From positions 14,439,417 through 14,503,416 of the forward strand of contig NC_092571.1 of NCBI RefSeq assembly GCF_037975245.1: a DNA stretch of 64,000 nucleotides, written 5' to 3'. The notes beneath the pieces were generated by a model. The model saw nothing but the letters and a program-made list of their open reading frames with translations, was not told the origin of the DNA and did no database searches. Source of the stretch: Apostichopus japonicus. Its lineage: Eukaryota; Echinodermata; Holothuroidea; Aspidochirotida; Stichopodidae. The number at the start of each line of letters is the position of its first letter. Position 1 is the stretch's first letter. The position numbers and the translations under genes were made by a program. Positions 23,655 to 61,240 of the stretch are shown piece by piece.

Positions 23655-24020
23655 ATGACTAACCTTAATCGGTTCTAGAGATGTTAAATTCACATATGTC
23701 ATCGTACTGTGATGTAGAAAGGGACTCAAACTGTGCCTGGGTACAGATGCATCCAATGGTTGAGTTCTGATCACAATAAGTAACGTAGACTAAAAGCTCT
23801 TTAGTCCGTTAGTAATGTGTAATGTTTCCGATAATCACAGCCCTCGCATTGGATTACTTCCAGATTTATCGGTGGAAACCCGTCTGTTATTGAACAAGAT
23901 AGGGCGACGTGTTATAGGATGGAGATGAGGAGAGGCCTTGACAAATAAGAGGTGTAGAAGGCTGGTATAATGTAAAGAGTTGTTAGATGTGATGAGAGTA
24001 AAGTTTATACTCGAGTTATC
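23655..24020 (-). pseudogene. Ig gene fragment, second domain only, frameshifted
   Basis: The reverse strand is a close relative of the second Ig-like domain at 55271-55600. It shows the YQPSTPLICQG start and, in other frames, GFPPINLEVI, GCDYRKHYT and the NHWMH region. Stops and frame changes break it, for example inside the SCSIT-equivalent region and after KHYT. No first domain lies directly upstream. This is a decayed partial copy in the minus-strand Ig cluster. Confidence 0.75.
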
Positions 24021-24539
24021 ATCAGTCAATGATATATGATAGGTAGAAACACACTAGAGCGTTTTACTGTAATTTAATAATTATCTTGTTAGGAATTCAC
24101 TGTTTATGCGTACATGGATAGTAAACGTATTTGATACTTGAGTCTGTGAGGGATAAAAACACTGAAATACGAAAATGTTGTGAGGCAAGACAACCTTGAC
24201 CTTAGAATACTTTTCATATATTTAATGAGACGGAACTGATTTTGTGCGTGATACTAAGTTGTTGACTGCATGAAAAACGAACAATAACATGACAAGACGA
24301 CACCCATGTCTCTTTTGTAAGCCGACGAGGAGTGTGCATAAATTTAAAACTTAAAGTAGCCTTCAAGTTTATGCGGTACTATTACCAGCCCTATCGACGG
24401 AGAAATTATTCCAACCAGGATGCCAAAAGTATCACTCTCCCACGAAATATAATTTAAAGAGTGCTAAGCAATTTATGACTGCAACCCAATTTACTGGGCC
24501 AATAATTTCGGGATTATCCCCAGCCTGTTTATATATATG

Positions 24540-25290
24540 TCTTTGGAACTTCCCAAGCACAACTATTAGAGTAACTAGTGATGGACATGAAGTCCAAGTG
24601 TCCCTGAGTAGCGACAAAGCCAACTGTTGAATTACCACTACACGAGGTAATATAAATTTTAAACACATTAAATGTTACCTTTAAGTGAATAATAGTGTTT
24701 CTCAAATTTCCCTCATTTCAATAACAAGCAACTAGATATATATGTCTGGTCTGGAACATGTCAATTCAAAGTAAAAGTTATTATTCTGAAGTAAAGTAAG
24801 AGTTTTCATGTCACAGAGGAGAGTTGAAGGAGGATGATAAATTGTAAACAGACGGTAAGTATGCTGTAGGAGAGTAGCATGTATAATATTATGATCATCA
24901 TCGACCAATGGCACTTGGTACGTTCCAGCATCTTCTGTTTGGAGGTTTAGAACTGTAAAACCAAAATCATAAAAATGCGATGAATAATTTTCAAGTGAGT
25001 AATTAAAACAAATATTGATTGACTATATGCTCACCATTTGACCATAACAGCTCAGTTTCAGCAAAAGTACGGGTAGATGTCACTCCGATGTGGGCCATCT
25101 CAGTGAAGTTCAACTGAAATCGAAGTATATATATATATATTATATATATATAATTCATATTTATATGAAAAGGAAATATCTCAGAAGACAAAGTCACATC
25201 CTACAACAGAATAAAAACCTGTCAATCTGATAGCTGGTCCATCTTGACAATTAAAATTACAATCGATACACTCAGACAATGACATTTACT
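24540..25290 (-). pseudogene. Ig two-domain gene, decayed
   Basis: Reading on the minus strand from about 25290, the N-terminal cysteine region is visible (CIDCNFNCQDGP, then VVGCDFVF). A disrupted TA-rich stretch follows (25125-25160), then an FTEMAHIGVT block, a V-domain end (LNLQTEDAGTYQVPL), the HTYRLFTIYHPPSTLLC junction and part of the second domain (ELTC; near 24600 STVGFVATQGHLDFMS, where the usual cysteine is F). Stops occur after the TA-rich block and after QYLF, and frames change between segments. It is closest in arrangement to the intact gene at 51243-52026. Confidence 0.78.
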
Positions 25291-27024
25291 GGGACATTAC
25301 GACGAATAAAATAAAAAATTGTAAAATCTCCATTTGTAAAGATATCTGATCTTTAACAATGATTATCCTGTACGTTACAAACACCGCTGTCTAAATCTGC
25401 AGTGTCGTCTTTAACAATGTTTACGCTGTGCTTTAAAGCGACCGCCGACTAACTTTGCAGTGAAGTCTTCTTTCGATAGAAACCAATAGTAGACAGAAGG
25501 TATTCTAGAAGAGGTTAAGGATTGTGCGCATGCACGGAAGTGTTAACACAGGAAAATAAAATATTTGGTCACAGTATTCAGTGAAATAATATAAGTATTT
25601 CTCAATTCCTGTTAATCTGCCTTCGGAGTGTTGATTGTAGAAGGCAAAGAACCAATGTTTATTTTTCTCGCTTATCCTTTCAATGCTCAGCTTACCATTT
25701 GTTACTCTCAGAGAATGGATGATGATAAATCTCTTTCATAGTTTCCATTTGCAAACCATATGACTATATGACAGTAATGTGTTTATATACAGGTAAATAT
25801 AAACTAAACGCTGGTTATGCGAAATAATCCTCTGACGCTGTACAAAGCTTTTGCGCCCGGTGCTTGGCTAAGTAACTTTTAAATGTTAAAGAATCGAAAT
25901 CTCATTGATATTTCAATGAAATACTGCGTGAAATCTTAAAAAAATGAAACGAAAATCGCCTTCAACCTGAAAAGCGAATGTCACACTGACAAGGTTGTGC
26001 AGAGATGTCGGTGGTTTTCTTAAAAAACAAACGGATGTGAACTGAATATGACAGAATGTTTCACATTAGTGAACGTAGGGCAAGCAATGTCGCTTATTCC
26101 ACTATTTAAATCTACCATGAGCCCACACTCCATCTTCACCCATTCGACATACACCAAAACGGTAACAACAGTCCACTTTTAATTACAAAAATATGCTGCC
26201 TCAACTAGGTCACCACACAAAGGTTATAAGTATTTCCTAATATTTGTCCTAATACTTGTCATTTAGCCTTGGAAGATGATCCTGCTAGAATCGAACGTCA
26301 GGCCAACTTACTTTTACACATTCTCCCACACATACTCTCTAGTGGATAAGCAGTTTGCTAACAGTTTTATTTTATTCTAATATTTTCATCATACTATTTT
26401 AGGCTCTAAGGTCAAAATCTTATGTGAATCATGGAATTGTGCCGTCTTCCATGGTTATAACATGTTCTAATGTAGCTATATCCGCCACTGTGTGCAGGGT
26501 CTCCGTTTCTTAAAATTGAAGACTATTAAACAACATAACAAGGCTTCTTTGTATCACTGTACTTATCAATAAATATCACTTGAAGAAAGTTCACGTGTTT
26601 TTGTACGTTAGCGTTGAACGTTTACAAAAATGAACCTGGCAATGACAGGACAGGAATATCAGGAGGCGCCTGTAAAATGGAGCTTGGGATCAAAAACAGG
26701 AAGTCCCTTAACCATACCCACCGGCCCACGGACTTCGGAGCAACGTGTGCAAGGAAACACTGAGCTTAAAGTCATTTTGGATTAAAATTGGATACTTCAA
26801 CATTCAACGGGGAATAAGCAGTTAGAAAAGTAAAAGTTTCTGTTGGTGCGATTTAGTATTCAGAAATTGGTCATGGATAGTTTGTTAAATTTGAACGATT
26901 CTTTTCTTCTTGGGGTAGGGTATGTTTATATGTTAAGCGATGGCTATGCAAATAATGAATAGACACTTTTCTCTTTCATAGCATTTGCGTACACGGTTGA
27001 TAATAAAAATGACAAGAAACTCAC
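25291..27024. repeat. Spacer duplicated at 58.0-58.83 kb; no gene
   Basis: The block at 25990-26220 (ggatgtgaactgaa, then ccaaaac and acaacagtcca words) matches 58070-58240. The block at 26880-26990 matches 58730-58800, immediately downstream of the paired Ig genes. The rest shows no coding signal. Confidence 0.6.
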
Positions 27025-27333
27025 CTGGATTACTTTTAGAGATGTTAAACTCACATCGGCCAGAATACTGCGGTGTAGAAAAGAACTCCAGCTGTCCCTG
27101 AGTAGCGATGCATCCAACGGATGAGTTCTGATCACAAGACATGACGTTAATAGAAAGTCTTCATTAATAGGAATATCCGGGAACGAGAAGTCACATCCTA
27201 CAAAAGCGTAACATTCTTTTGGAAGTACTGCTTCTCTATCTATGCAGTGAGAATTACAATCAGTGACGTCACAATAACATGATCCCAGAGAGATGCCAAG
27301 AACAAAGAACGAAGAAACAAAAAATCCTTCCAT
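27025..27333 (-). pseudogene. Ig gene with internal deletion joining both domains
   Basis: The start at 27333 gives a hydrophobic signal-like segment (residues 1-18) and then the family's N-terminal cysteine block, ending VGCDFSFPDIPINED. Directly after that the sequence jumps, with a frame change, to the end of the second domain (SCDQNSSVGCIATQG, then RCEFNISKSNPG) and a GTGAGT donor at 27024. Compared with the complete relative at 58837-59644, about 500 bases are missing: most of the V-like domain and the first half of the second domain. The frame change makes a normal product unlikely. Confidence 0.8.
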
Positions 27334-28235
27334 CTTAACAACTTTTAAAGTTCCCTCGCGTCGGAGACTTGCGCCCGTAACTGTATGTTTCTAATACTCT
27401 ACATGTATAATTATCCTTGAGAGCATACTTTTAACGCATGCGTATCTTTAACTTCAATTACGCATGGCTGAAAATAGCATACCAATAGCATAGAATTGAA
27501 AGCCTTGTATATCCTTTTAAATGAATATATTTCTGTATTTTAATAATTACTCGTCAGATTCACTTTCTCTCTCTCGCTTTCTCTCTCCTGAGACATTCCT
27601 TCATGACAATTGTCTTTTATTCTTGACAAGTTGTAGACATATTACCTCTTTATATGTTGGGCCTAAGTAAAATCAAATATAGTCTTTATTGACCTTTTAT
27701 GACTCAACAAGGATGATAAAAGTTCATGGATAAAAAAAGTAATTAATTAATAAAATACATGGTACATAGCTCGTTCTAAAGACGACATGAAAGTATATTA
27801 TTACTTATTTTGCAGAGCTAAATGGAAGTTTTCCATACCGGGCTTCTCTGTGAACCGACTTGAGGAATATATGAGGTTTACAGAGAAGCAGTGATATGAA
27901 TTTAAAGGACCACTAATTTAACGGCTTACTCAGTAAGCCTCATCTTACAATATATTAATTCAATATGAGCTATGCATTATTCTTTCTTTCCAGTGCAACT
28001 CTCTTCCCCAAAATGTACCCCATGGAAATTCCCATGCGTATTTAAACAGAACGATTCCACTAACTCTAAATGAATTTCATTCTTCACGGATAGCATTCAA
28101 ATACTGCGATAACATAATTCATCGAAATTGAATCAAAGGGAAGATAAAATTGTCCATGTCATTGCCATTTGTCTTTCCTACTTTCATCCAATAATCTAGC
28201 TCCGGAATATCTATGATATCCATGGGGCAGCTTAC

Positions 28236-28710
28236 CAAACAGACGGTATGTGTGTTGTAAGAGAATTGGGCTGTCAGTCCCGTCATAGTAAATCTCTGTT
28301 AGGTTAATATGATATGTTCCAGCATCTCCTGGTTGAATGTCTCGGATTCGGAAAGAAAAATCGTCAAACCCCCCCGATGGATGCCAGAGCGGGTATTCAA
28401 CTTGGAATAGATAACGATCATAAGTATGATCCTCATTCCACCGGAACGTACCAGAGTAAAGAAAGGGAGCTCGAGGAACAGTATCATCGGTAGCCAGTTC
28501 GGTAAAATTCAAATGTAATCTAAGTATATATATATATACATATGAAAATGAAATACTTGGAAATGATAAGTCACAGCCTACAAACACATAACAGTCTGTT
28601 GAATTTACTATAGGTCCATTTTTACAGTGATAATCACATCCAATGTCCTCAGAAATAGACAACGTGATAAGAAAAATAAAAGAATAATATAAAGTAGACA
28701 AAAAATCCAT
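28236..28710 (-). CDS. Ig V-like domain protein, first coding exon
   Basis: An open exon from the ATG at 28710 to a GTAAGC donor (exon end 28236, phase 1). Residues 1-20 are hydrophobic, a probable signal peptide. The family cysteine block follows (GCDYHCKNG, then CYVFVGCDLSFP), then a V-like domain ending in DAGTYHINLTE. A canonical Ig V domain has cysteine two residues after that tyrosine; here it is N. The exon continues to HTYRLF and then the donor, so the second domain is not in this exon. No matching next exon was found nearby, so the gene may be partial or may splice onward to a transmembrane exon. Sequons for N-glycosylation (NFTE, NLTE) suggest an extracellular protein. A TA dinucleotide run lies inside the coding region (28523-28540). 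Closest relative in the window: 60760-61240. Confidence 0.7.
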
Positions 28711-29744
28711 ATCGATATATTGCGGTAGAGTGACAATTATTAACAGTAATTATGATGTATGTAGTAACCGCAGTCAATGCAACACTATTCGCATATGTCT
28801 GCAAAGCGATGAGCGTTGTTTATCAATCAAAACAGAGAGTCGTTCTCAAGTACTACCTGCACATTCGCACACGTGTGGGTGATTTCAATTGAATAAAAAA
28901 TGAAACTGATCAGGATGCTAATGAAATGATATCCCTATAGTTACGTCACAATGAATTCATTTGAAACTTTAGTTTTAATAATATTTGAGCTATTTTTGCT
29001 GATGTAGCCTGCTGATGTCTGTGGTGATATTGACAAATTTTAGAATTTTATTTTAACATGCTGTTCAAACATGTTTTGTATCTTTTAGCTGATCTTGTAG
29101 CTTATAAAAGAAATGATTCATAGTCAAGTGGTGATATTTAAATAAATTATATTTGACTCAACTCGGTTCAACACTGAAGGAGTAGTACTTACCACACATA
29201 TTTGAATCTGATTATTACTCAAAATAAGACTGCAATTTTCGAACTGGGACTCCATAGATTTTCCCAATATCCATTTGTGGACCACATTACCCGTCATGCG
29301 TTTTAAGCATGCAATTTTAGCCATCTTGAAATATTTTAGTCATGAAATTCCATGTGTATTATCCAATAAGTTCGGTAGTTTCTCCAAATTTAGTACATCA
29401 TTATGACCGAGGTATATGAAACTAAAATTCGACCATGTTGGTTGCCTAGTGTTATTTTCTAATAAATCAATAACACAGTGGTATGATCCAACAACGCTGT
29501 GGATTACATGCCGTGCTAAGGAAAATGAGCTTCCTCGTTACGTCAGCATCAATAATGGCCATCGCTTGTATGTTCGAAGACAGTGTATGTCTGACACTTA
29601 ATTAAATGTAGTTACGGGGTTTTCCTTCAAACGCCCTAACATTACTTTTAATGTTTGGATCACATGTTGACCTTACTTATGATACATACATACTTGTGTT
29701 TGTGCTATTTTGAAGGGAAAAAATAATTTGGAGAGATAGATGCG
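28711..29744. other. Spacer upstream of Ig exon; no gene seen
   Basis: The first 250 bases resemble 61241-61500, upstream of the paired Ig exon. They share a gcgatgagcg/gcgaggagcg block and a cacacgtgtg word, so promoter-proximal sequence was duplicated with the gene. No coding sequence was recognised beyond that. Confidence 0.5.
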
Positions 29745-29985
29745 ATAAAGTTTTTAGGGAAAATTTGCCAGTTGGCAGGCACTCCTGGAGGCGGTGAAGT
29801 GTGACATTCGCTATCAGGTTGAAGACGATTTTAATTGAACGGGTGGTTGGAGGTCTGCCTCTGCAGGTCAGGGGGCGTTTATACTTTTTTGGCTCGCTTG
29901 ACTTGAGTTTTTGTTTGTTAGAATGGGATGGATGGGTAGTGCCACTTGGCCGTGACGTTTTGGATCCCGTAGGGCGGGTCACCAA
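29745..29985 (+). mobile_element. 5'-truncated LINE (same family as 16379-21277)
   Basis: Matches the end of ORF2 and the 3' untranslated region of the full-length LINE, from the aatttgccagttggcaggc block to ggcgggtcacc. An internal deletion removes the stretch after the gacgatttt block. A clean target duplication was not found. Confidence 0.75.
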
Positions 29986-30613
29986 AAAATATATACTCTA
30001 CATACTCTACATTCTATTGGGTTCGTGTTTATGTTATCCAAGATTCGTGAGCCGTTCTATTGAATTCGGAATTCGTTTCGTGGAATGGGTAAGCCTACAC
30101 TAAAATCAACCTCACGACGCGAGTTCACGAGTCTTGAATGAATATACGCAAAAAAAGTATAATGCACAGTATGATATATTACCGTCACTGAACTGTGTGC
30201 ACAGTTATTGTACTAATGGGCCCACAGCACATGTGTGATGCACCCTGTACGAAACTTCCACTATGCCATGTTATCGATCAATTCCTTCGCGAAAAATTCA
30301 ACCAAAGTAGATCATACAATATTAGTGTGCTAAATATTTTTAAACCAATTCGAAACATATCTACATATATTTATGTAAATCTTCGGGAAATTTTGGACTT
30401 GTATATCTTCGTTGCGTGAGCGGTAAGAGGGGGTGGGTATCACTGCATCATCCGTATCGTAAAGTCACATGTGATATCTTTGTAACTATTTAGTTTTATC
30501 GAACAAAGTTATTTATGCTAATCCATACGTTACTACTAATTAAAACTTAACTAGTTACCGGTACTCATTAGCATTTAGTCTCAGATGGCGCTGTACCACT
30601 ACAAAACAAATGA
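29986..30613. other. Spacer; no gene seen
   Basis: AT-rich sequence without a recognisable gene or repeat. Confidence 0.4.
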
Positions 30614-30628
30614 ATTATTAAATTCTTA

Positions 30629-32477: not shown

Positions 32478-32492
32478 ATTATTAAATTCTTA

Positions 32493-33010: not shown

Positions 33011-33038
33011 ATCGCTTCTCGGTCTTTTGGCTAAGATC
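33011..33038 (+). pseudogene. U2 snRNA 5'-end fragment
   Basis: These 28 bases match the conserved 5' end of U2 spliceosomal RNA from the first base (ATCGCTTCTCGG then TTTTGGCTAAGATC), with one mismatch. The similarity stops at 33038, before the branch-site-pairing GTAGTA, so this is not a working U2 gene. It is a retrocopy fragment or the head of a chimeric element. Confidence 0.75.
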
Positions 33039-33418: not shown

Positions 33419-33429
33419 AAACAATTACG

Positions 33430-33668: not shown

Positions 33669-33684
33669 GTAAAGTTAAACCCAC

Positions 33685-42289: not shown

Positions 42290-45200
42290 ACAAGGTAATA
42301 GTCACATCCAATATACTTCGAGAGAGGCGTAGTGATGACTGCTGCTCAACGTAATATGTACTCAAACAGCTTATCATTAGTATTATTCAATTTATATGAT
42401 TGTATACTCGTGGACCCTAATACATCCGGCAACAATAAAGAAGATGTGCACTGTAGTGTTTTTCCTTAACGAGGATTGCCACTCAATTCACTTCAACATA
42501 TATTCAACTGTTTTTAAGCGGTTCGTTAACTTTCCGCAGACATTCTGCAATGTCACTTTCCAGTAAAAGTTTAGGATTGAAAAACCCAAATTCTATATGT
42601 ACAAAGGACAATCTCCGTTTTTATTACTCTGCTTTGGTATTAGTAACTATTGAATCCATGATCCATCAGAAAATGGTACGAAAGATATGTCACCGTTAAG
42701 GTACATGCTCGGTGACGTTCAACTCTAATCGTAGTACTAAATAATATTTATATATAAGTCAAATATCCCACACTCCAAATATCTCACAACCGAAAACAAT
42801 GTTTCATTTGAAAGTCGGTTCATCTTGACAAACAAATCCATTCAGTGCCCTCATGAAAATACATTATCAGGAACATTTCGACGAATTATACCAGATTACA
42901 AACATCTCCAACTGCTTTTACACTGTATTTTAACTACCTCAGATTAATGTTGCAATGTCGCGTTCCTGTACAATGTTTAGGGCTGGAAAACCTCCGTGTG
43001 AGTATCTACTTGAAATAAATAGCGATTGAATCCATATCTGAAAAAGCACCCCATCGTACAAAAACGTACGGACAGATATATATCCGGTGTGACACAGCTC
43101 GGTAACATTCCACTCAAATCTAAGTACATCTATATGATATTTATATCAAGAAGAAAACTTCGAATAAGAACAGGTTGACCTGATAATTGATCCATCTGCA
43201 CTATAAAAATTACAATCAGTTCCCTTTGGAAAACGACACTAGCAGGAACATTACGAGGAATAATATAGAAAATGTAAAATCACTACATTGAACGATTTCG
43301 TCTCAATATATATTCAACTGTCTTTAAGCTGTGCGTTAACGATGTTGCCGCAAGCTTTTTTTTACAATGACCCGTCCTGTTAAAAGATTAGGATTGAACT
43401 ACCCAAATTCTATTAATTCTAGTCTAAGTACTATATAATATTAAAATGGAAAGAAAAGCTCATCTCCTACAACGAAAGGACAAACTGTTGATTTGATAGT
43501 TGGTCCTCCTTGACAATACAATGTCGTTAGCAGGAAAAAAATCTAAACCAGAAAATGGAAAATCTTTTCATTATGAAATCTTAGTTTAATTAGGATTGAA
43601 ACAAATCATGAACTTACGATGGATAATCTGTATGTGATTATTCTACTTGGAATGTTTAACGCTTGAATCTATGATACATATCCACAAACAGCTGATTGTA
43701 CGCAATATTACGGCCAAATTTGTCTCCGCTGTGAGTCGTCCCCATGAGTTTGAACACTTACCAAAGTACTATATAATATTTTTACGAAAAGGAAATATTT
43801 GTAAAGGCATCCTATAATACACAGAATACACAGATACACAATCAGCATGCGGAAAGTTTCGCTAGCAGGAGCATTACAAAGAGGAAGACAGGAAAGGTAA
43901 ATCATCCATATTGATAGATTTCAGTTCGATGAATCATCAAATGTGTTCATGTTATGCGTTAGTAACAGAGAATGAAATATTTTGTCTCATTTTCTACATG
44001 AAAACAAATCATGAACGTTTGACTGATATTCTCAGTGTGAATATCTACTTGGAATAAATATCGATAGAAGTTATCATCCAGTTCTAAAGGAACATTTCAT
44101 TGTACACGAAAGAACAAACAGATATGTAACCGGTCTGTGATTATCTCGGTGATTTTCAAATATAATCTAAGTAGTATATAATATTTATGGCAAATCTACA
44201 TAAAGACAAATCCTAGTTCAATCTATCTTCGACTCCTTTATACGATACAAATTTTTGTTGCAGTGCTGCGTTCCTGTTTAAGGTTTTGGATTGGAAAAAA
44301 AATAATATCATGACATTACAGTTGTTGATATCCTTGTGAGTATATACTTGAAAAAAATAAAGAATTTATCCAGTATCCATATAGAAAAGTGTATTCCATT
44401 GTATATGTATGTAAGGACGGTTCAATTCTTGTCTGACTTTTGTGAAGAAGAACATCAGAGAAGAGTAATGTCCTACAATCGAATAAGAACAGGTTGAACT
44501 GAAAGCTGGTAAATCTTGCCAATAAAAATATAAATCAGGAAAAGCAGGAACATGACGGAGAATGAAACAGAAAAAAAGGTAATAGGTCACTACATTTGCA
44601 AGAATTTACTTCGAAATATATTATTTCACATTTAAGCTGCGAGTTACAGCCGTTCCTGCAGACGACTTACTTTGCAATGTCGCGTTCCAGTTAAAGGTTA
44701 TGAATGAAAATACCAAATACAATGAATAATCTACTTTCGTGTCTCCGATTGTACGCAACACTAAGGTCAGATTTGTATCCGGAAGTAGTCATTCCTATGA
44801 GTTTCAACACTAATCCATTGCAAGTTCTATAAAATATTTTTTATGAAAAGGAAATATTTGAAACGGCGGAGTGACATATACAACCAAACAACATATTGTT
44901 GATATAAAGTAAAGCCATTGACAACAAGTCAAATCAATTTACGGAAATTGTCTCTAGCATGGAAGTTTGGTATATAATCTCCCCTCCAAATCGCATAAAG
45001 CATCGTCGGATTGTAGAATTGCAAATGTTCGATTGATAATCTCAGTGTAAGTCTACTGATCTACTTGAATCTATGATCCATAGCGGAAAGAGAATCCTAC
45101 GGTAGACAGAAGGCGGGCAGATATGTTCTGGTCTGGGATATACCGGTGGAGTTCAACTTTAATTTATATAATACTATATAATATTTATACGAAAAGGAAA

Positions 45201-45365
45201 TATATAGAAAGACCAAGCTGTGCAACGGAAAGACAATCGAATAACAATATTTAGATCCGACAGTTGTTCCATCTTGACAATAGAAAATTACAATCATTAT
45301 TCTTGGAAAAATAACGCATTTACACGACAATTTCGAGGAATAAAATAGAAAACTTTAATTCCGCG
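42290..45365 (-). repeat. Tandem array of decayed Ig gene 5' halves
   Basis: About eight units with a period of roughly 300-400 bases. Each contains, on the minus strand, a stretch of upstream sequence, a signal-peptide-like region, the N-terminal cysteine region and the first part of the V-like domain. The V end and second domain are absent. The tactatataatatttata block recurs near 42735, 43125, 43430, 43765, 44175, 44820 and 45170. The reverse of catcttgacaat with an acaatca word recurs near 42826, 43190, 43500, 44508, 44915 and 45270. Stops are present in all units, so none appears to be expressed as protein. Confidence 0.65.
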
Positions 45366-46182: not shown

Positions 46183-46267
46183 CTGTAGAAATATAGGATG
46201 ATTATCACAGACAGGACGAGTACTACAGCAATTACGATCATCACCAACTTCATTATGTTGTTCGTGT
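46183..46267 (-). CDS. Transmembrane exon, probably of the Ig gene at 51-52 kb
   Basis: An 85-base exon between an acceptor (ctctacag) and a GTAAGC donor on the minus strand. It encodes DTNN followed by about 20 hydrophobic residues (IMKLVMIVIAVVLVLSVIII) and YFYR, a single membrane-spanning segment with a basic stop. The acceptor is phase 1 and fits the phase-1 donor of the Ig exon at 51243, giving a continuous extracellular-to-membrane reading. It lies about 5 kb downstream of that exon, across a decayed LINE. The cytoplasmic exons were not identified. Confidence 0.6.
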
Positions 46268-50370: not shown

Positions 50371-51242
50371 AACACATCTTAAGTTAGGCTTAGTAATTAC
50401 TTAGACGTTGGTCAACATATTGGTGTACAATGAATAGGTTGAACACGAATAGAATATAATTAGGAATAGTCACGGGTGCTTGAATGTGTAAATATCGTAC
50501 TTAGATGAGCTAATGGATAATGTCTGTGGAAATATCATCTTATTCTCCTACACGAGAATGGTTATATGCATGGGTTTGTATCAATGTTTATTGCGGCAAA
50601 CGGCCAAAATCGTTTCCATATTACCCGTGTTACTTGTGCACACTGATACACCAATTTGCAAAACATCACATGTGTAAAAATCGTAAATTTTAGAATCCTC
50701 CTCTCGTTATTGGTAATTGGAACATATTTACATAAAGTCTTTATCTATGTTGGACGATAAAAATTAAAAAGCGCTAATGTTTAACGTGGTCTAAGTAACC
50801 GCTGAACCGTGAACTCTGTATGAATGGTGTAAAATAAGACGTGTTGCAGTGGATTAACTACTTGTTTGGGTGATTGGTTGCATGATTGGTTAGTTGGTTG
50901 ATTGATTGATTGTATTGACTTATAATTAGCAACTTATTCATCTGAACGAACTTATAAAATATGTTATGTTTATGAGCGTTCATGCAAAGCTAAGGATAAT
51001 ACAATAGATAATACAATACAAAGAAATATCCAAGAATGATTCAAAAGGTATAATGAACTAATCTTAGTTGTGTTATAGTTGATTAGAAAATTATTTCTTT
51101 ACTCAGAACACAAAACTACACTTCAATCCCAATGGCTCTGTTTCATCACTATAGTATCACTTATAGCAGATACTTGAAGAACCACTACAATATATTCTCT
51201 TCTGTCAGTCTTGGGGACGAAATATGACATACTTTGACTTAC
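50371..51242. other. Probable intron sequence; no gene seen
   Basis: Contains a ttggttg/gattgattg low-complexity patch near 50870-50915. Nothing else was recognised. Confidence 0.4.
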
Positions 51243-52026
51243 CGGGATCATCTTTTGGAATATCAAAAGAACAACTGTTTGAGGATGGTATCGTAGACAT
51301 GAAATATAGCTCTCCTTGAGTAGCAGTGCAACCAAAGGTAGAGTCCACGTCGCACGTAGATATATAAACTGTAAGCTTCTTGATGTCGTCATTCTGTGAA
51401 TAAGATTTGTAGTACGAGCAGCCCTTTGGTTCTATCATATCTAAAGCCACTGAAGGGTAAGCATCTGAGACTGAGCAAATAATGGACAACTTGTATATAC
51501 TGGAGCCTGTGGATAAATCTTGTATTTCACAGAGAAGAGGTGTGGAGGGTTGGTAAATAGTAAACAGACGGTAGTTGTGTTGTACAATTGCCTCTTCAGT
51601 CGTCTCTTCAATCAAAGTCACGTGATACGACCCACAATCCTCTGCTCCCATGTCATCAATCGTAAACGAAAGTGCAGCAGCAACGTCTTTTAAATCATCG
51701 TTGGGAGTTTTGTCTCCTTGCAGATATATTCGTATGACTTCAAAACTATATCGATCCACCTTGTGACTGTCCCGATACGAGAACTTTCCTTTGTATTTAT
51801 AGATCCCTCGAGAAGATGTATCATCGATATAGTTCATGCTCAGACTCAGAGAACTTTTGTAATTTCCATAGATGGGGACATCAGGAAACGAAAAGTCACA
51901 TCCTGCAATAACATAGCAATCTGTTGACTTGTTTGTATCCGGTCCGTCAGTGCAATGAAAGCTACAACCGACGATGTCTGATGAAAAAACAAAATGGGAT
52001 AAAAATGATTGTATGTAAAGATGCAT
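51243..52026 (-). CDS. Ig-like receptor, V-like plus second Ig domain, intact exon
   Basis: An open exon of 784 bases starts at the ATG at 52026 and ends at a GTAAGT donor, phase 1. Residues 1-16 are a weak signal peptide. The family N-terminal cysteine block follows (GCSFHC, CYVIAGCDFSFPD). The V-like domain spans about 30-150 and ends EDCGSYHVTLIE; the canonical cysteine after the tyrosine is T. The second domain (about 165-258) starts at YQPSTPLLC and has the SIICSVSDAYP and FGCTATQG cysteines of an ordinary Ig fold. The expected role is a cell-surface or secreted binding protein; the ligand is unknown. The transmembrane exon at 46183-46267 fits its phase. An acceptor-like ttttttcatcag within the signal-peptide region means the signal peptide could instead come from an upstream exon. 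Confidence 0.78.
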
Positions 52027-53015
52027 GGGTAACCGAGAGTTTGAATGTTTATAACATATGTCATATCATATAGGTCTTGAGATTGCTTTCTTTTCTTCTC
52101 TCGTACCCTCTTTTTGTGAAAACTCTATCTGGTTTATCAACAAGGGTGAACTGACCGGTCGGCTAATCGGTGCAGGCACTAGAGCTTAAAGATATATGCG
52201 GCTCACTAGCCACGATAGTTTCCTATATGCAGAACGCTTGTGTTGAACAACTGTGGACTTTATCCATTTTAAATAGGTTTCTTCAAAAGAGGGCTGAATC
52301 TCGAATCCAAGGGGACACAGTACTTTTGTTGAGGTCGGGTTACCCCGAATATCATTCAGACCTCCTCAGCTACTTACAAATCTGTTATCATACCGTTATT
52401 ATATGCTTTGTTTCGTTTTTGAACATTGTTTGACCTTGTAGTAATAAGAAACAATCAATGAATGAAGTAATTTCCTCCTCGAATCAAAACAAACTATTCA
52501 ACTTGTTAACCTGTATGCAGGAGAAACAGAAAAGAAATTAAACCTCCGGGTTTTACTTTCACAATTCAACGCATAACAAGCTTCAAGACGTTGGAATTAC
52601 ATTTTCTCACGAATGACATTAATGAAGATTCTTTAAAGTAACCTTACATTTCATTAAATTATGTAAAAATGCTTTTAGAAGTTATGACAAATGAATCCGT
52701 CTATCGATACACCACAATTTGAGAACTTTTTTGTATATTTTTGGATCTTATAGTGTCCTTTCAGATCTATGAAAAATTCTGTCGAAGCTTGATGTTGTTT
52801 AAATTGTGTCAGCAATTAGTATGAACAAAATTATGGAAAGTTAAAGAGAAAAAGAAATATATTCATTAAAACATTAGCTATAGTGTGATATATTTGCAAT
52901 ATATTTGTTGATATTACACTTATAAATATTACTGCTATAAAAAATATGCGAACCCTTGTCTGATAGATTATTTATTCACGCATTCGTACTCGTTGGATAC
53001 TTCAAATATTCAATG
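52027..53015. repeat. Upstream spacer, partly duplicated; no gene
   Basis: The block at 52390-52700 matches 23060-23360 and 21630-21780 (for example gaacattgtttgacctt and the ggttttactttcac words). No gene was recognised. Confidence 0.55.
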
Positions 53016-53023
53016 AGTTTACG

Positions 53024-53137
53024 ATTCTGTTTGTGGGTTTTCAGTGGGTTTTTGGTGGTTGTTAAACAGGCTGGGATTGTTTTTGGTTTTGTTGACCTTT
53101 GGTCCGTGTCCATTTTCTTTGCACGTGAAAAGCACAC
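53024..53137 (+). mobile_element. Very short LINE tail insertion (second family)
   Basis: One hundred and fourteen bases of second-family 3' end between AGTTTACG duplications (53016-53023 and 53138-53145). Confidence 0.78.
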
Positions 53138-53230
53138 AGTTTACGTTACACGTCTTTAAACGGATATGATTCACATGTATTGACAAACAGTATCATTCTT
53201 GTCATTAGATATTGGTTATAACATATTGTC

Positions 53231-53421
53231 TCACATGAGTAGGCGAGGCTTCGAACAATTTCTTTAAATGATTCAGTGGGGACACAACAACAATATGAAA
53301 AAATGAAATTTTCTGTTGCAGTAAGTTCTAGGCTCACCCTCATTTTTACTAATAGCATAAACCCGCCTACATCGGATGTCAATCAATCGTTGAAATTTCC
53401 GAGGAGGGCGATTGTCCGCAG
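53231..53421 (-). repeat. Dispersed repeat, inverted arm 1
   Basis: Reverse complement of 56665-56861. Both hold a tcacatgagtaggcg-type end, a gtggggacacaacaac block and a ccgaggagggcgattgtcc end. The element type is unknown. Confidence 0.65.
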
Positions 53422-54154
53422 ATTTTGTTTAATCGTACTTTGCTGAATAGTTCTCCATTTGTTTTGTGTTGGCGAATAACAATAAAGACATCATGTAATT
53501 GTTTATATGAGTAGCGAACGTGTATATTGTTTTATTGCTTATACACGGGGCCAGTAACACATTTTACAGACGCATATATTATTAAAACCAGCATATGAAA
53601 CGTCCTTAAACCGTCTGAAATAAGTGTTTCCAGTGATAAATGAGATACAAAATCTCATTTGTATTAAATAGTACTTGCACTTTCCCTGAACCTAATTACT
53701 ATTTACACCAAATCACTTTTCCTGATTTTTCCTTCGATTGGAAAGATAGCTTGCGTGAGCTGGATGAAAGTTTATTTGTTGCTCATTTTAAGAGGAATTA
53801 CACTAAATGAGGTTATCTCTGTTCTGATAATATGCCTATTTAGGATAAATAAAATTAAACCCTGCCTCTTCTTGTTTTCTGATGATTCTATTTTAGCTAG
53901 ATTAACGAAATAATTGTCTAAAACTTTAAGGAACTTCCAGGCAAGTACTACCATTTGTTAATATATTTAAAATAATTTATGTTTCCTCAATAAATGAAAA
54001 TATCAGCCTAGATTAGGGCGTGTTGCGTATTAACATCATGATAAGGTCACATGAGATGTAGTTTCCTAACGCTGCATTGCTAGAGAAACTGTGAGATGTG
54101 CTGCAGTGATAATGCTTGAGATGACAGTGCCACGGATTTGATTGCAAGTATTTT
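53422..54154. other. Spacer; no gene seen
   Basis: AT-rich sequence with no recognisable gene or repeat. Confidence 0.4.
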
Positions 54155-54660
54155 GAATTATAAAAATCCTACACAAACACTGACATTAATAAAAATGTTT
54201 TAATATACAGCTTCTCAGTTTAGTCAACATTGGACTGCTACAGTTTAGTTTATGATGTTTCCATATTATTTCTTACCTATATTTTAATTATTTTGGAAGT
54301 ACTAGATCCCTGTAAATCTTGGTGAATGTTATTCGCATATCTCACAACAAACCTCACGAGAGCATTGCGTCTTTGCCCCCCTCACAGGAGCGAGGAACTA
54401 TATGAATTATAAACATCCTACACAAACACTGACATTAATAAAAATGTTTTAATATACAGCTTCTCAGTTTTGTCAACATTGGACTGCTACAGTTTAGTTT
54501 ATGATGTTTCCATATTATTTCTTACCTATATTTTAATTATTTTGGAAGTACTAGATCCCTTTAAATCTTGGTGAATGTTACTCGCATATCTCACAACAAA
54601 CCTCACGAGAGCATTGCGTCTTCGCCCCCCCCCCCCCTCACAGGAGCGAGGAACTATATG
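54155..54660 (+). repeat. Tandem duplication of a ~250-base unit
   Basis: 54155-54402 and 54403-54660 are nearly identical (both start aattataaa.atcctacacaaac and end gcgaggaactatatg). The main difference is the length of a poly-C run (54377 against 54624). Confidence 0.85.
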
Positions 54661-55270
54661 TGGGGTCACCACATTTTACATTTAACGTCATGAGAAATAA
54701 CCATGAAGCTTTTATTTACTAAAAGGTTATCAAGAGTATCTTCTATACAGGCTCATATTTTAAATCCAGCTATGAATCCTGGAATGCAGTCTTTCATTGC
54801 AATTTTGAGGTACGCAATGACAGACACCATACTAAAAAAAATTCCAGATCAGGCCATTTGTAACATGGGACTACCAACCATTTGCTTAAGCTTTTCTCCC
54901 CTAATATTTCACTGTATTTAATATCAATACATTGTACTTGTTTCTGTACGTTTGGGTTGAAAGATTGCAAATAATATGTATAACAATGTGAATAAGTAAG
55001 GTCGCGTCTTGAATAAGTTTCACAAATCTCGTGACTCAGGAACAGGACCTCTCCGTTTCCCCACTACACCTAAGGTCAGAGAAACTGGAGCAATACAAAC
55101 ACGTGTAAAAAAATAAGTTGTTTCCTTTAGTATTCGGAAAGTGGGTTAATATATTGTCTGCCAGCAGTGTTTCTAAAGGTCAGGCGTTTTTCATTAAGAT
55201 ATATCTTTCCCGTTCAAATAACGTTCTTACAAGCTTCATAAAATAAAAATATCAAAGAATAACGACTTAC
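54661..55270. other. Spacer; no gene seen
   Basis: No supported gene. 55190-55230 resembles 23610-23640, next to the related Ig fragments. Confidence 0.4.
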
Positions 55271-55703
55271 CTTGATCGGTTCTAGAGATGCTAAATTCAC
55301 ATCTGTCATCGAACTGTGATGTAGAAAGGGACTCCAACGGTTCAAGAGTAGCGATGCATCCAATGGTTGAGTTCTGATCACAAGAAGTAACGTAGACTAA
55401 AAGCTCTTTAGTTCCGTTATTATCTGTGTAATGTTTCTGATAATCACAGCCCTCGGGTTTGATTACTTCCAGATTTATCGGTGGATACCCGTCTGTTATT
55501 GAACAAGATAGGGCGACGTGGTATGATGCAGATGGCGATGAGGAGGGGCCTTCACAAACAAGAGGTGTAGGAGGCTGGTATACTGTAAAGAGAATACAGG
55601 AGTTATCATCAGTCAATGATAGATGATAACTACAAACACCCTCTCTTTGAAGGCTGAACTCAAGGAAAGTACCACGAGTAATCCTCCTCAATATATTCAA
55701 CAT
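55271..55703 (-). pseudogene. Ig gene fragment, second domain with truncated V end
   Basis: The second domain is complete and open: YQPPTPLVCEG, ALSCSITDGYPPINLEV, GCDYQKHY, SCDQNSTIGCIATLE and CEFSISRTDQG, up to a GTAAGT donor (exon end 55271, phase 1). Upstream, most of the V-like domain is missing. Only parts near LQREG and YHLSLTDD remain, and there is no signal peptide. A tttacag directly before the second domain would serve as an acceptor, so use as an exon of a longer transcript cannot be excluded. Paired with the decayed fragment at 23655-24020. Confidence 0.65.
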
Positions 55704-56660
55704 TAAGTTAAGTTAATATTTATTGACTTTTCATAATATTTAAGTGGTGCATTCGTATAATAAAATACACAGACTGAATGTAAAGAATGTAAAGAAAAAC
55801 TAGCGACGCTCTCACATGCAATATCAGAGTTAACACATACATTCCAAGAAGTCATCATTGCATACCGTTATTACTCGTAGTATTCAACATATTAGATTAA
55901 TGAGTAATATATTTTGTTAATTTATTGTTGACTCATAGCACTTTTTGGTCTCTTTTATCCAGGATTACGTTATTTGACAAGTTGCTCTTGTTTAATTATG
56001 CAAAAGTTGGGCAAGATTTCAGTTCAAAAGAAGAAACTCAGTATATCCACCGTCAATGAGATAACAGTGACTCATTACTTTACGAGTTAAATTGGTTGTT
56101 TTTAGTACCTTTATAGATGGCAAAAGAGGCAAGGGGAAATGAAAATACAAGCTGAACGAGATAGAAAGAAAGAAAGAAAGAGAACTTGAAACTAATCCCA
56201 AAAGTCGACGTTCATATAAAGACATGTTAGACAGAAACGAGAATATTTCTTTTACCTAATCGTCATGATCTGAACACGTTGAACCTTCAACGTAACAGAA
56301 CTTATACTTAGACCAAAAGGAAGAAATATACTGCAGAGACCAAGTGAAGACGAGTCTGAATGGAACCATATGTTGTATATATGAAATAGACGTAAACACG
56401 TATGAGAATATATAGAAAGACGCTTCTAACTGTTATAAATTACAATGTTGTTTATATTTCACATTGAAACTAATACACACTCTCTGTCCTTCTTTACTAC
56501 CCATTAACTGAACATGAATAATGAGTTTTAATATGCCTATTGAAGTTTGCTTTACAGAAAACAGATGTGGTGAATACTGATAACATCAACATTTCGAGAT
56601 TATATTATTGACATGGAACATAATTTAATGGTTCCCGGTCAACTCCCCCTGGAACGAATT
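55704..56660. other. Spacer; no gene seen
   Basis: The minus-strand frame at 56019-56225 is hydrophobic but has no other support. A short gaaagaaagaaagaaag repeat lies at 56162-56178. Confidence 0.4.
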
Positions 56661-56664
56661 CCTC

Positions 56665-56861
56665 TTCGGACAATCGCCCTCCTCGGAAATTTCGACGATT
56701 GATTGACAGCCGATGTAGGCGGGGTTTATGCTACTAGTCCAGTAAAAATGAGGGTGAACCTAGAACTAACTGCAGCAGAAGATTTCATTTTTTTCATATT
56801 GTTGTTGTGTCCCCACTGAATCAATTAAAGAAATTGTGCGAAGCCCCGCCTACTCATGTGA
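56665..56861 (+). repeat. Dispersed repeat, inverted arm 2
   Basis: Inverted copy of 53231-53421, differing by scattered substitutions. The open frame starting at 56836 overlaps its end and extends into ordinary spacer, so I do not call it a gene. Confidence 0.65.
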
Positions 56862-57699
56862 CCGTCTACTCACTCTGGGTAACCTACCCACCAATTATGA
56901 GACCGATCGAATCTTGTATCATTCAGTTATCGTGATTACAAGCTGGCGTTGCAGACACACAGACACACACACATGCGTGACTGCATATATTCTTTTTGCC
57001 TCTGGAAGTTCTAAGAATAAGAAAGAGTCAAAGAAAAGTCTACCCGGAAACAAATGCAGCAATAGTGCGCGCAAAGTGCGCAAAAAATGTGAAGGTTATC
57101 TAGCTAACATGCATGTGGCAGGAGTAAATAATTCTCACAGCATCAATGCAGCTATTGCGCGCGAAGCGATAAATCTATTTTTTTCACAAATTTACCAAGC
57201 TGACTCCCAAAATATTATTATTGTATCAGTGTAGCTATAGTACCCACAATGCACGCGAAACAAAAAAGTGTTTTGGTACTTTGTCTCCTAAAACACAATC
57301 GTTTTGCTATTTAAGCTTTTTAATTCAACGATGTTTAACTACACTGCAGAAGTATTACATTGTTAGCGTGACAGAACGAAAGCGGTAATTTAGATCTCTA
57401 TGTAAGTAGACCAAATTAAACCTAAATCTCACATATTTATGTGGAAAAAAAATAAGCGAAAGTCACTCTCTACATGGCAGACATGGTTTACATACAGAAA
57501 ACGGTATTAACTAAATATGTTACTAATGCACGAGAATCTCGCACAAAGATGCCCGTTGTTCGTATCTTTAACTTCGCGATTATTTTTTCTCATGTGAGTT
57601 GGCCCTGTTGTTTATGCTAATATAAAATACTATAGTACGCAGGCACAGTTTTTATAGGTAACTAGCGTTATCAATTCGTCCCAATTGGGTGCTCTCGAT

Positions 57700-57900
57700 T
57701 GACAATAATCTGTGGGCCAATAGTGTCCGGGGGGTATTGAGCGGGAGGGGAATTGTACGGTGGGAATCGACCGTGTGAGAATTGTCCAGTGGGTACTTTT
57801 CAAGTATGGGAATAGTCCAGGGTGGAAATTATCTGGGTAGGAATTGTCCGGGGTACTCGTCTGGGCGGTAATTGTCCATGAGGGAGTTGTCCGGTCATCA
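57700..57900 (+). repeat. Degenerate minisatellite, attgtcc units
   Basis: Irregular repeats of a gggaattgtcc-like word (for example near 57748, 57778, 57809, 57840, 57868 and 57889) separated by 15-35 bases. G-rich on the plus strand. Confidence 0.65.
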
Positions 57901-58836
57901 TTTAAAGAGTGTGACGTCGTATAACCAGAATACGCTATCCACTCACTGAACAAGAATAGTGGGTTTTAATTTGACTATAACACGTTGCCCTACATAAATT
58001 GTACGTGGTTAAATTTAAAATGGTGAGTGCTGGGACTTACTAACTGACAAGTATTGCAGGTTCTCGTAAAACATGGATGTGAACTGAAGATAGTAAACGT
58101 AGGGAAAAGAATGTCGCTCGTTCCATAGTTGGAATATGCCATGAACTCATCCTTTATCTTCACAGATTCGATACACACCAAAACCCACTGAAATAACAAC
58201 AGTCCAATTTCCTTACCAGAAAATGTTGCCTCAACTAAGCATACATCATTCAATAAAGACTATAGGTACTGCCCTCGTTTTATATTAATATTTGCTAAAG
58301 TTTCAATTTTCTATTGGCTCTTAGGTCAATGCCTATATGAATCCTGCAATGGTGTCGTCATCATTGGTTGTAACTAACATATATGTTAAAACATATTATG
58401 TTCTAATGTAGCTTATATCCGTCACTTTAAATTACATATGAAGACTATGAATCAACACAGCAAGGCTTCGCTGGTTTACTGTACTAAAGTACTCGTGTGT
58501 TTGTACGGTAATGGAGCTTATGGTTAAGAAAAAAGTCACTTGACCACACCCACCAGTCCACTGACTTCGGAGCAACACGTGCAAGGAAAACACTTTGAAA
58601 GAGCTAAAAGTCATATTGGGTTACATTTGTGTACTTTAACGATAACAGGGCACAAGCAGTAGAAAAGTGCATTGATTGTGTTGGTGCGATTTAGTATTCA
58701 AAAATTGTTCTTAGTCTTAAACATTTTCTAAGTGGGTGGGGTATTTTTATATGTTAGACGATGCCTTTCAAAATGATGAATACACAGTTTTCTCATTGTT
58801 TGCGTACACGGCTATTTAAATAAATGATAGACTCAC
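57901..58836. repeat. Spacer duplicated at 25.99-27.02 kb; no gene
   Basis: Matches the spacer downstream of the paired Ig gene at 27025, showing that whole gene-plus-spacer blocks were duplicated. Confidence 0.6.
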
Positions 58837-59644
58837 CTGGACTACTTTTAGAGATGTTAAATTCACACCTGTTCGAATACTGCGGCGTGGAAAGGAACGC
58901 CAGCGATTCCTGGGTAGCGATGCACCCAATAGTTGAGTTCTCATTACAAGACGTAATGTCAACAGAAAGCTCTTGAATACCGTTTTCATCCGTGTAATGT
59001 TTCTGAAAATCACAGCCCTCGGGCTCAATCATTTCCAGATTTATCGGTGGAAACCCGTTTGTTATTGAACACGATATAGATACGTTGTAGGAGCCAGATG
59101 GGGACGAGGAGGGGCCTTGACAAACAAGAGGTGTAGGAGGCTGGTAGACTGTAAATAGATGATAGGTGTGATGAGAGTAAAGAGTATACGTAAAGTAATC
59201 ATTAGTCAATGACAAGTGATAAGTACCAGCATCCTCTCGTTGAAGGTTTAAGATGGAGAATGAAAAATCAACCTTAGTAACTTCAGGCCAGTAGTCGGAT
59301 AGATCTTCCTCAATATATTCTACTTTCGCTTGAAATAAATATCGATTGACTGTCTGATTCTGATTTCTTTGTATACCGTTTAAGGAGTAAGTTCCTTTAG
59401 GGGGAACGTCCCCATTAGAACGTCCGGTGAAGTTCATTGCCACTCGAAAATCAAATATGTATACATCTATGTCATCTATATTTAATTTAATATGATCTTT
59501 ATTAACAACCATATCCGGGAACGAGAAGTCACAGCCTAGCATAGCGTAGCATTCCTTTGAATTTACTGTTTGTCCTTCTGTGCAGTGATAGTTACAACCG
59601 ATTACGTTACAAGTATATAATACCAGGAAGATGGCAAGATGCAA
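58837..59644 (-). CDS. Ig-like receptor, V-like plus second Ig domain, intact exon
   Basis: The best preserved member: 808 open bases from the ATG at 59644 to a GTGAGT donor, phase 1. Residues 1-15 are a hydrophobic signal peptide. The cysteine block reads GCNYHCTEG then CYAMLGCDFSFPD, four closely spaced cysteines before the V-like domain. That domain ends REDAGTYHLSLTND, lacking the canonical F-strand cysteine. The second domain (about 170-265) starts YQPPTPLVCQG and carries SISCSITNGFPP, EPEGCDF, SCNENSTIGC and CEFNISKSSPG, so it has the normal B and F cysteines plus extra ones. Several N-glycosylation sequons fit a surface or secreted protein. No transmembrane exon was found next to it. 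Confidence 0.8.
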
Positions 59645-59940
59645 GAACTTTGAAACAAGGAAACCATCCTTGTTTAAATAACTTACGACTTTTAAAGTTG
59701 TCCAACGTCTCAGACGTGCGTTTGTGCCTGCATTTATTTGAAAACTCTTATGAGAGATAGAAAGTGGTCTTTGTTACAATTCGCATGCGTTAATTTGCTT
59801 TCAACTGTGCATGTCTGGAAAATATAATTCCGACATTACAACATGCATCACGAGAGTATTCCAAACTTTTAACATCGCTTTATTTTTTACAATTTTTTTT
59901 GGCCATTCACCATTACATATTGAATAATTTATGGAATATA
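59645..59940. other. Ig gene 5' flank
   Basis: The first 100 bases resemble 27334-27380, upstream of the paired gene (acttttaaagtt then tcagac/cggaga). Promoter elements cannot be assigned. Confidence 0.4.
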
Positions 59941-59953
59941 ATTAATCGCATTG

Positions 59954-60327
59954 TGCTTTAACGTGACCCACCATGCGGGATACAAAAGGTCACGGCCAAA
60001 CGACACTACCGAACCATCCCATTCTTACAAACGAAACTCAGGTCAGGCGAGCCAAAAAGTACATACGCCCACCGACCTGCAGAGACGAACCGCCCAACCA
60101 CCCACTGAAACATTCAAAAACTACAAAAGGACGATCAGCACGCAGCGAAACAAAACTTCCCTCCCCAGCACACCACCGTCCAAAAAAGGCAGCCTTAGAT
60201 AAACGGCGAAAATCGCCTTCAACCTGAAGGCGAATGTCAGATCTCATCGCCTCCACGACTGCCTGCCAACTGGCAAATTTTCCTCTAAAAATAACATCAT
60301 ATCTATTCCTCCAAACAAGTTTTTTGC
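59954..60327 (-). mobile_element. 5'-truncated LINE (first family)
   Basis: A 374-base minus-strand insertion flanked by perfect ATTAATCGCATTG duplications (59941-59953 and 60328-60340). It covers the ORF2 end and the 3' untranslated region. Confidence 0.88.
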
Positions 60328-60759
60328 ATTAATCGCATTGTTCATTGTGCCGTTATCAGATAACTTATAAAGTTCAAGCCGTCTTACACCTCAATTTGTT
60401 TTCAAAGAATATGGCAAACTTAGTCAAACAACATCAGTCTCCATTTCGATGGTTCTCTAACCTACCTTATCTAATAACCATCCGTATATTTTGGCAGTTC
60501 CATAATGTGGAAATATATTCAAATATCCAGAAAACGTAAAGACACACGAATAGTTAAAGCTATTTCTTATTAAACTTTGTTTTTATTTCGCGATGAGCTA
60601 ATCACTTGGATATATCTGTCCGTCTTTTTTTTTCAACAAAGTAACGTTTCGCCAGATATTTCAATCAATCTGGTTACTCTGAACATGTGTCTCTAATTCT
60701 CGACGGCTTTTAGTCATACATAACTGAGTATGAGTAGATAAATGTTAGGTACAACTTAC

Positions 60760-61240
60760 CAAATAGACGGTATGTGTGTTGCAATAAAGTCGGGCCGAAA
60801 GTCCAGTCGCTGTATGTATACTTTATGTCAACTTGATAAGTTCCCGCATCGTCTAGTTGGATATTTAGGATTGAGAAATTAAAGCTAAAAAAGCAACTCC
60901 AATTGACACAATAAAGGTATTCAACTTGGAATAGATAACGATCATAAGTATGATCCCCAAACCACCGGAACAATCCAGAGTAAAGAAAGGGAGCTCGAGG
61001 AACAGCATCATCGGTAGCCATCTCGGTGAAGTTCAAATCTAAGCTAAGTATATATATATATACATGCATATCTGAAAATGAAACATTTGGAAACGATAAG
61101 TCACAGCCTACTACCACATAACAGTCTGTTGAATTTACTGTAGGTCCATCTTGGCAGTGATAATCACAATCAATATCTTCTGAAAATGAAGAAGTGATCA
61201 GAAAAATTAAGAAACCATGTAAAACCGGTACAAATCCCAT
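60760..61240 (-). CDS. Ig V-like domain protein, first coding exon
   Basis: An open exon from the ATG at 61240 to a GTAAGT donor (exon end 60760, phase 1). A signal peptide spans about residues 1-21, followed by DCDYHCQDG and CYVVVGCDLSFP, then the V-like domain ending DDAGTYQVDIKY (again no F-strand cysteine) and HTYRLF at the donor. It is the partner of 28236-28710, sharing the TA-rich coding run that gives VYIYIL. The second domain must be encoded elsewhere or be absent. A direct splice to a phase-1 membrane exon like that at 46183 would keep the frame. Confidence 0.72.

Follow-up and report, generated by a model that had tools for sequence, protein, structure and literature searches.

A tandem array of immunoglobulin-type receptor-like genes in the genome of the sea cucumber Apostichopus japonicus

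Exon units at the locus and their splice structure

We analyzed a 64,000-nucleotide stretch of DNA from the sea cucumber Apostichopus japonicus (contig NC_092571.1, designated C11; C11:14439417-14503416), hereafter the window, that carries members of a gene family encoding putative immunoglobulin (Ig)-like receptors. All of the family pieces found in the window are on the minus strand, and they are arranged as exon units with V-type (V) and constant-type (C) domains and a transmembrane (TM) exon. Sequence comparisons indicate that this is a real, expanded Ig receptor family without a match to a named family in the databases searched. We lean, without great confidence, toward reading it as a family of type I recognition receptors whose tandem units carry alternative V-bearing first exons.

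Unit 1 opens with a D exon (60760..61240) that contains a start codon, a signal peptide, a block of four cysteines and a V domain, ends in phase 1 at the donor CTATTTG/GTAAGT (a slash marks the exon boundary) and belongs to the D clade of the V-domain tree described below. The A exon that follows (58837..59773) encodes V and C domains in one open frame (mature part, 58837-59608) and has the donor CCAG/GTGAGT. Because its start codon is AAG, it is start-less, the sole copy without an ATG among 31 aligned A exons. The C exon (55271..55582) encodes a six-cysteine, candidate C1-like domain in phase 1-1 between the acceptor CTCTTTACAG/ and the donor CAAG/GTAAGT, and a decayed V remnant upstream of it reaches position 55712. 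The A2 exon (51243..51977) again encodes V and C domains, without a signal peptide, and is bounded by the acceptor TTTTTTCATCAG/ and the donor CCCG/GTAAGT; the 85-nt TM exon (46183..46267) has the acceptor CTCTACAG/ and the donor CTACAG/GTAAGC. Decayed remnants of V exons lie 3' of the TM exon (42939..45354). In unit 2, the D exon (28236..28710) has a start codon, a signal peptide, the four-cysteine block, a V domain and the donor TTTG/GTAAGC. The A exon of this unit (26936..27333) retains its start codon and has lost most of V and C by deletion, with a change of frame, and both the V-C exon (24532..25285; assigned to type B by eye) and the C-type exon (23668..23982) carry frameshifts.

Besides longer pieces, we read 80 exon-size stretches (L005-L084), another 12 (L093-L104), 20 TM regions (L105-L124) and 5 others (L125-L129). 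The D, C, A2 and TM exons of the window join at GT-AG sites in phase 1 to give a single open frame, with the predicted product signal peptide-V-C-V-C-TM (signal peptide recognized by eye). A signal peptide and a TM segment in one reading frame, as in a type I membrane receptor, are thus present in the window join and also in five relatives on contig C15. The same splice signals recur among the copies. D donors read TTTG/GTAAGC in 14/14 cases, C exons have a TTTACAG acceptor in 14/16, and A2 exons, from which the signal peptide is absent, have a CAG acceptor in 7/7. Exons that end in the second domain do so at GTGAGT, GTAAGT or GTAAGC in 41 of 46 cases (array V-C exons, off-array A2 exons, copies on contig C18 and three C or B pieces). 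An acceptor-like CTCTTTACAG/TC inside the A exons was considered as a site kept for splicing and rejected: it places A at the third base of a Thr codon in 30/30 copies, and this invariance is no evidence of splicing because 52% of 54 four-fold sites vary just as little.

Many exons begin with a start codon and signal peptide of their own, a number of relics are genuinely damaged, and four C15 relatives end shortly after the C domain, as would be expected if every V or V-C exon were a separate small gene for a secreted protein and the array a product of plain tandem duplication and decay. Against this explanation, which we consider very unlikely, stand the consensus donors and acceptors at the domain borders, a similar unit order at three off-array places, the grouping of copies by exon position and the state of the TM exon, whose acceptor, donor, frame and hydrophobicity are kept in 24/24 copies read of the 33 found (23 of 85 nt, one of 88 nt). 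The grouping was seen in a tree of 71 V domains, which leaves out the D exon of an off-array unit at 4.48 Mb as well as L101, and in which L064 is entered twice. Single clades were recovered for D (17 tips, support 0.98), A (32, 0.80), B (6, 0.92) and A2 (7, 0.99), with the off-array copies grouping with their own exon type; the D exon of the 4.48-Mb unit is 78% identical to the window D exon. Because the exon-type clades include off-array copies, the tree topology indicates that units were duplicated as wholes, and V-only, V-C and C-only pieces would therefore be largely exon types and not products of decay. The first-pass annotation of this DNA had described intact, fused, truncated and deleted members side by side. 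Most of these are better described as exon types (V-only with a donor, V-C, C-only with an acceptor, and TM), and true damage in the window is seen at 26936-27390 (deletion, frame change), the relics at 23668-25285 (frameshifts) and the start-less copy at 58837-59644 (AAG).

Extent of the array and related loci

Homology searches covered the 671.6-Mb assembly. In a DNA search with the 58837-59644 copy as the query, 39 of the 40 matches scored (among 109 candidates) were inside C11:13.24-14.66 Mb, all on one strand. We also searched at the protein level with the 51205-52062 copy (136 of 304 candidates scored) and with the V domain of 28234-28650 (150 of 254 scored). The V-domain search returned at least 123 V matches in C11:13.19-14.66 Mb, at least 89 of them near-full (at least 118/139 residues) and on one strand, and 79 of these 89 contain no internal stop. 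By type, which was given by position and identity, the near-full matches comprise at least 36 D, at least 39 A, at least 9 B and at least 4 A2, plus 1 decayed match without a type; these counts are minima, as not every candidate was scored. The TM exon gave 33 matches, some partial; the array holds 29 of them, the rest of C11 another 3, and contig C4 a single one. These matches delimit a main array of about 1.5 Mb, of which the window is a small part that holds two of about 29 tandem units. The expansion on one strand that was first proposed from the window alone is, consequently, real and much larger than the window.

Ordered matches of the V-C protein search and the TM search reveal a pattern along the minus strand that recurs, not always complete: V-only, 1-2 kb, V-C, ~3 kb, V-C, 1.5 kb, C, ~3 kb, TM. 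The exon order per multi-exon gene is D(V)-A(V-C)-B(V-C)-C-A2(V-C)-TM. Outside the array, the complete D-A-B-C-A2-TM order is present at C11:4.478-4.513 Mb, and partial orders are found at C11:7.546-7.554 Mb (D, a B relic, C, A2, TM) and C11:11.108-11.116 Mb (D, two C matches, A2, TM). Related members also lie at C18:15.16-15.68 Mb and on C15, with a second cluster at C15:6.31-6.54 Mb. The C18 locus (15.157-15.684 Mb) has eight V-C exons in inverted arms, three on the minus strand (15.16-15.23 Mb) and five on the plus strand (15.62-15.68 Mb), and the four that were read are sister to type B in the V tree. A lone relative of the TM exon (L128) is at C4:14163358-14163486, with no C4 V match among the matches listed.

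One block of the array (C11:14.21-14.43 Mb) is repeated about 160 kb apart, with 99.5-99.9% identity in three exon pairs (L008/L013, L010/L014, L009/L015), and reflects either a segmental duplication of very recent date or a haplotype that was not purged. This repeat, together with the 92.9-99.9% identity of nine other pairs compared, is what one would see if haplotype duplicates left in the assembly inflated the copy number. The other copies from the DNA search are, however, 81-91% identical to the window copy, a divergence greater than expected between haplotypes, and we regard such inflation as an improbable account of the array.

We read 11 places on C15, two of which were missed by the recovery pattern used. 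Five of them encode a signal peptide, V, C, TM and a tyrosine-bearing tail in one frame, with the tail motifs EEIYSLV, YDDV and YEIF, and YENN and YCNT. Two copies from C15:6.31-6.54 Mb (L093, L094) combine the signal peptide, V, C and TM with a tail that bears NPGY and EEIYSLV, all in a single frame; they are either retrocopies or the ancestral form. Given the tyrosine motifs in their predicted tails, signalling by C15-type receptors is plausible.

Folds and cysteines of the two domains

The block of four close cysteines (C-x3-C, then C-x5-C) described for all members in the first-pass annotation is present in all four readable V exons of the window. The cysteines (C5, C9, C20 and C26) are invariant in 25 V domains that were chosen for alignment, down to 27% identity, including C15 members 27-32% identical to window D. 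For a wider count we used the 68 of 80 rows in which both the block and the F strand were read (12 one-part rows were dropped, and the count precedes the later C15 loci): all four N-terminal cysteines are kept in 63/68 copies, and the five losses are each of the first cysteine. The F-strand cysteine (D-x-G-x-Y-x-C), also said to be absent from the readable members, is found in 0/68 copies, its place being taken by L, V or I. The D-x-G-x-Y motif and the D-strand Arg are otherwise kept (D109, G111 and Y113 invariant, and R79 in at least 90%, of the 25 chosen V domains). Lacking the F-strand cysteine, the V domain has no central Ig disulfide, and the canonical disulfide of a SIRP-type V domain was therefore not found.

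The AlphaFold model of the window D1 V domain, built from seven sequences of the window of which three are partial, had a predicted local distance difference test score (pLDDT) of 77.6 and a predicted TM-score of 0.70 (best of five). This model has an Ig fold, as the first-pass annotation had supposed, and supports a V-type fold for the domain: Foldseek matched it to 24 PDB structures at E<=0.001, mostly T-cell receptor (TCR) V domains and PD-1, and VIA placed NKp44 on top (1hkf; Z 9.6, root-mean-square deviation 3.1, 105 aligned residues), tied with TCR V, TREM2 and TLT-1. Neither CEACAM nor SIRP structures were among the best 50 VIA rows. Two short strands near the start of the model hold C9 and C20, and the VIA rows begin at residues 7-18; because most of them begin at residue 16, C5 and C9 precede the matched fold. 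The further proposal that the V fold uses a different disulfide pattern is not established, as in the model most of the matched Ig fold excludes C5 and C9, and C20 occupies a short strand near the start. The four N-terminal cysteines may instead form an N-terminal cap. An attempt to derive the disulfide pairing from patterns of loss was dropped, since all five losses hit the first cysteine and so do not point to its partner. The Ig core itself may have no disulfide at all, as in CEACAM1, where an internal Arg-Asp salt bridge is described in place of the usual disulfide (PMC7979749); the suggestion rests on the model and on the conservation of R79 and D109.

At the level of sequence profiles the likeness to Ig V domains is weak. 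The Pfam V-set profile matched 20/35 members at E<=0.1 (best 8.9e-6), with printed scores below 26 bits, and the best match in a PDB profile search was SIRP-alpha (E 1e-7), followed by VEGF receptor 1 and CEACAM1. Neither Pfam nor PDB sequence searches returned a match to a named family, in line with the earlier failure to recognize one. In the second domain six cysteines are conserved, of which five are invariant and the sixth is present in at least 90% of 22 sequences; assignment by hand puts two of the six at the B and F positions, so that the normal Ig cysteines attributed to this domain are indeed there. Its likeness to a C1 domain is a lead, not proof: L064, a C15 member, scores above the Pfam C1-set cut-off (23.8 vs 21 bits), 2/22 C domains match that profile at E<=1, and 10 of the 11 rows of a PDB profile search at E<=10 are antibody heavy chains (E 0.12 to 1), with an IgG constant domain the best.

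Divergence of the exons and other features of the window

Pooled pairwise ratios of nonsynonymous to synonymous divergence (dN/dS) in 31 A exons were 0.48 (signal peptide), 0.74 (V domain) and 0.45 (C domain). The corresponding values were 0.43 (signal peptide) and 0.61 (V) in 14 D exons, and 0.58, 0.60 and 0.72 (signal peptide, V and C) in five B exons. The leaders are constrained as protein, since their dN/dS lies between 0.43 and 0.58. This bears on how the D, A and B exons, each with its own signal peptide, are used in a gene in which A2 begins only with an acceptor. They could follow one another as internal exons of a single long multi-Ig protein, with leader-like starts that are pyrimidine tracts before acceptors, and most D leaders do end in a T-rich stretch and then, in phase 1, GAAG, a possible acceptor. 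Yet five B copies and 3/14 D copies have the leader AG in phase 0, these B and D leaders have no CAG acceptor of the A2 kind, an in-frame ATG is kept in D, A and B (30/31 in A), the leaders evolve as coding sequence, and A2, a V-C exon that is truly internal, lacks a leader of this kind. With no TTTCTCAG acceptor seen in the leader DNA, we find the internal-exon explanation decidedly unlikely.

The V domain includes a segment between the conserved FP and NFT, before strand C, whose length varies (15-29 residues in A). The ratio of nonsynonymous to synonymous differences (pN/pS) in this segment was 1.13 in A (bootstrap 0.63-2.15), 5.31 in D (1.88 and up) and 1.80 in B (0.61 and up), and 0.65, 0.59 and 0.57, respectively, in the rest of V. 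Of the single classes only D is clear; the agreement of the three is the stronger point. In the V model the segment spans strands 33-36 and 42-51, ending mid-way in the latter, and we read it as similar to complementarity-determining region 1 (CDR1-like). The likeness to a fast-evolving, receptor-like multigene locus that was noted at first is supported.

The window also contains, on the plus strand, a non-LTR retrotransposon (16554-21112) with two frames, one of 381 aa with a zinc knuckle and one of 1149 aa for an endonuclease/reverse transcriptase (Pfam RVT_1, E 1.6e-31), and two adjoining open reading frames of 681 and 235 aa (4033-6786), in the same frame with a stop between them and with a sub-threshold C2H2 zinc-finger match, perhaps a mobile-element gene. 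Tandem arrays occupy 14741-15236 (109-base period, 4.6 copies) and 54154-54630 (249-base period, 1.9 copies, 97%). A scan of the window with Rfam gave no match. Elsewhere in the assembly, contig C29 (14745-31219) carries a collinear, frame-broken COX1 and, about 16 kb on, a second partial COX1 at the contig end, perhaps a tandem mitochondrial copy or an assembly leftover; the mitochondrial contig is C35 (16.1 kb), separate from these copies. Its genes, assigned by eye, run cox1-nd4L-cox2-atp6-cox3-nd3-nd4-nd5-(nd6 reverse)-cytb, as in sea urchins and sea cucumbers, and a bindin match on C18 (E 5e-29) also fits an echinoderm.

Candidate recognition receptors and known systems

The explanation that we favor, and think somewhat probable from the gene structures, is an echinoderm family of type I Ig recognition receptors encoded in tandem units with alternative V-bearing first exons. 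The ancestral gene would have had D (signal peptide-V), A and B (signal peptide-V-C) and the common 3' exons C, A2 (V-C) and TM. D, A and B would act as alternative first exons through promoter choice, leaving each gene a choice among up to three V domains for a shared V-C-TM stem. The receptors would be displayed at the cell surface, with the length-variable, CDR1-like segment as the probable ligand contact, and could serve in non-self or allogeneic recognition by coelomocytes or other cells, their diversity arising by duplication of units.

Several observations weigh against this proposal. No TATAWA was found within about 140 bases upstream of 34 starts examined, and no cytoplasmic exon in about 10 kb 3' of six TM exons and that of the window; in the comparisons listed, these 3' regions share V remnants and conserved blocks in which no open frame is held in common. 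In the off-array unit at 4.50 Mb the C exon goes out of frame before the domain ends, 4/11 C15 places stop soon after the C domain with no TM segment in frame, and there may be assembly duplicates among the copies. The dN/dS of the whole V domain is below 1 in A, D and B, and the bootstrap interval of the FP-NFT segment, which was picked after sliding windows and from pairs and copies that are not independent, falls below 1 in A and B. The five V models spread over pLDDT 51 to 77.6, and a two-domain model of the A product (window rows only) reached a pLDDT of 50.3 and was not used.

The receptors may also be real and have another role, such as non-immune cell adhesion, gamete or symbiont recognition, or neural identity, all of which Ig receptors of this shape are generally known to serve. 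We consider this possible and somewhat unlikely: the fast turnover, the broken copies next to intact units and the variable segment suit changing targets, and gamete recognition would look alike. The bolder version of the receptor proposal, in which the 1.5-Mb array is an echinoderm allorecognition or antigen-recognition complex, with alternative V first exons on a V-C1-TM stem, that evolved independently of vertebrate V-C1 receptors and cnidarian Alr, seems unlikely.

Diversified Ig receptor arrays (Alr, SIRP and CEACAM-like) are already known in principle. SIRP-alpha is a vertebrate V-C1-C1 receptor, and CEACAM is a vertebrate family with other Ig sets following the first domain. The SIRP-alpha match extends from the final part of V through the C domain, and both have a V domain followed by a C1-like one; the sea cucumber proteins differ in having no F-strand cysteine, no common cysteine block was seen, identity is low, and the match is mostly to the D-x-G-x-Y region. 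CEACAM1 chains, of those in the PDB, match the V profile with E 8.5e-5 to 6.5e-4. Huene and colleagues reportedly described, in 2022, Alr domains without the usual motifs, and the SpTransformer (185/333) proteins of sea urchins are not Ig proteins. The Hydractinia Alr allorecognition complex has 41 Ig superfamily genes in a single-interval array; like the present array it is found in an invertebrate and has V-type domains of an unusual kind, with a role in recognition (PMC11999971). The family analyzed here is set apart by description, not sequence, being from an echinoderm and having V and C1-like domains, a fixed four-cysteine block and several signal-peptide V exons per unit. Amphioxus VCBP are diverse invertebrate V-type proteins (PMC2632668); in contrast, no chitin-binding domain was listed by Pfam in 35 members scanned, the scan covering the exons found so far. 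SpTransformer is likewise an immune family of echinoderms whose genes are clustered, change fast and show segmental duplication (PMC5103432); it differs in having genes of two exons (PMC3091723).

Searches of open-licence literature listed no description of the family by title or abstract, which does not imply that it is unpublished. To our knowledge, no receptor has been identified for the graft rejection or allogeneic reactions of echinoderms. Both reactions are reported for echinoderm immune cells, and the part of that source consulted mentions only possible histocompatibility genes (PMC9763293). A single-chromosome array of V and C1-like receptors with a variable segment would provide concrete candidate receptors for these reactions. 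It would also add a V domain without the central disulfide and with a conserved N-terminal cysteine block and, the C1 assignment being weak, may add a deuterostome case of a V followed by a C1-like domain outside the jawed vertebrates.

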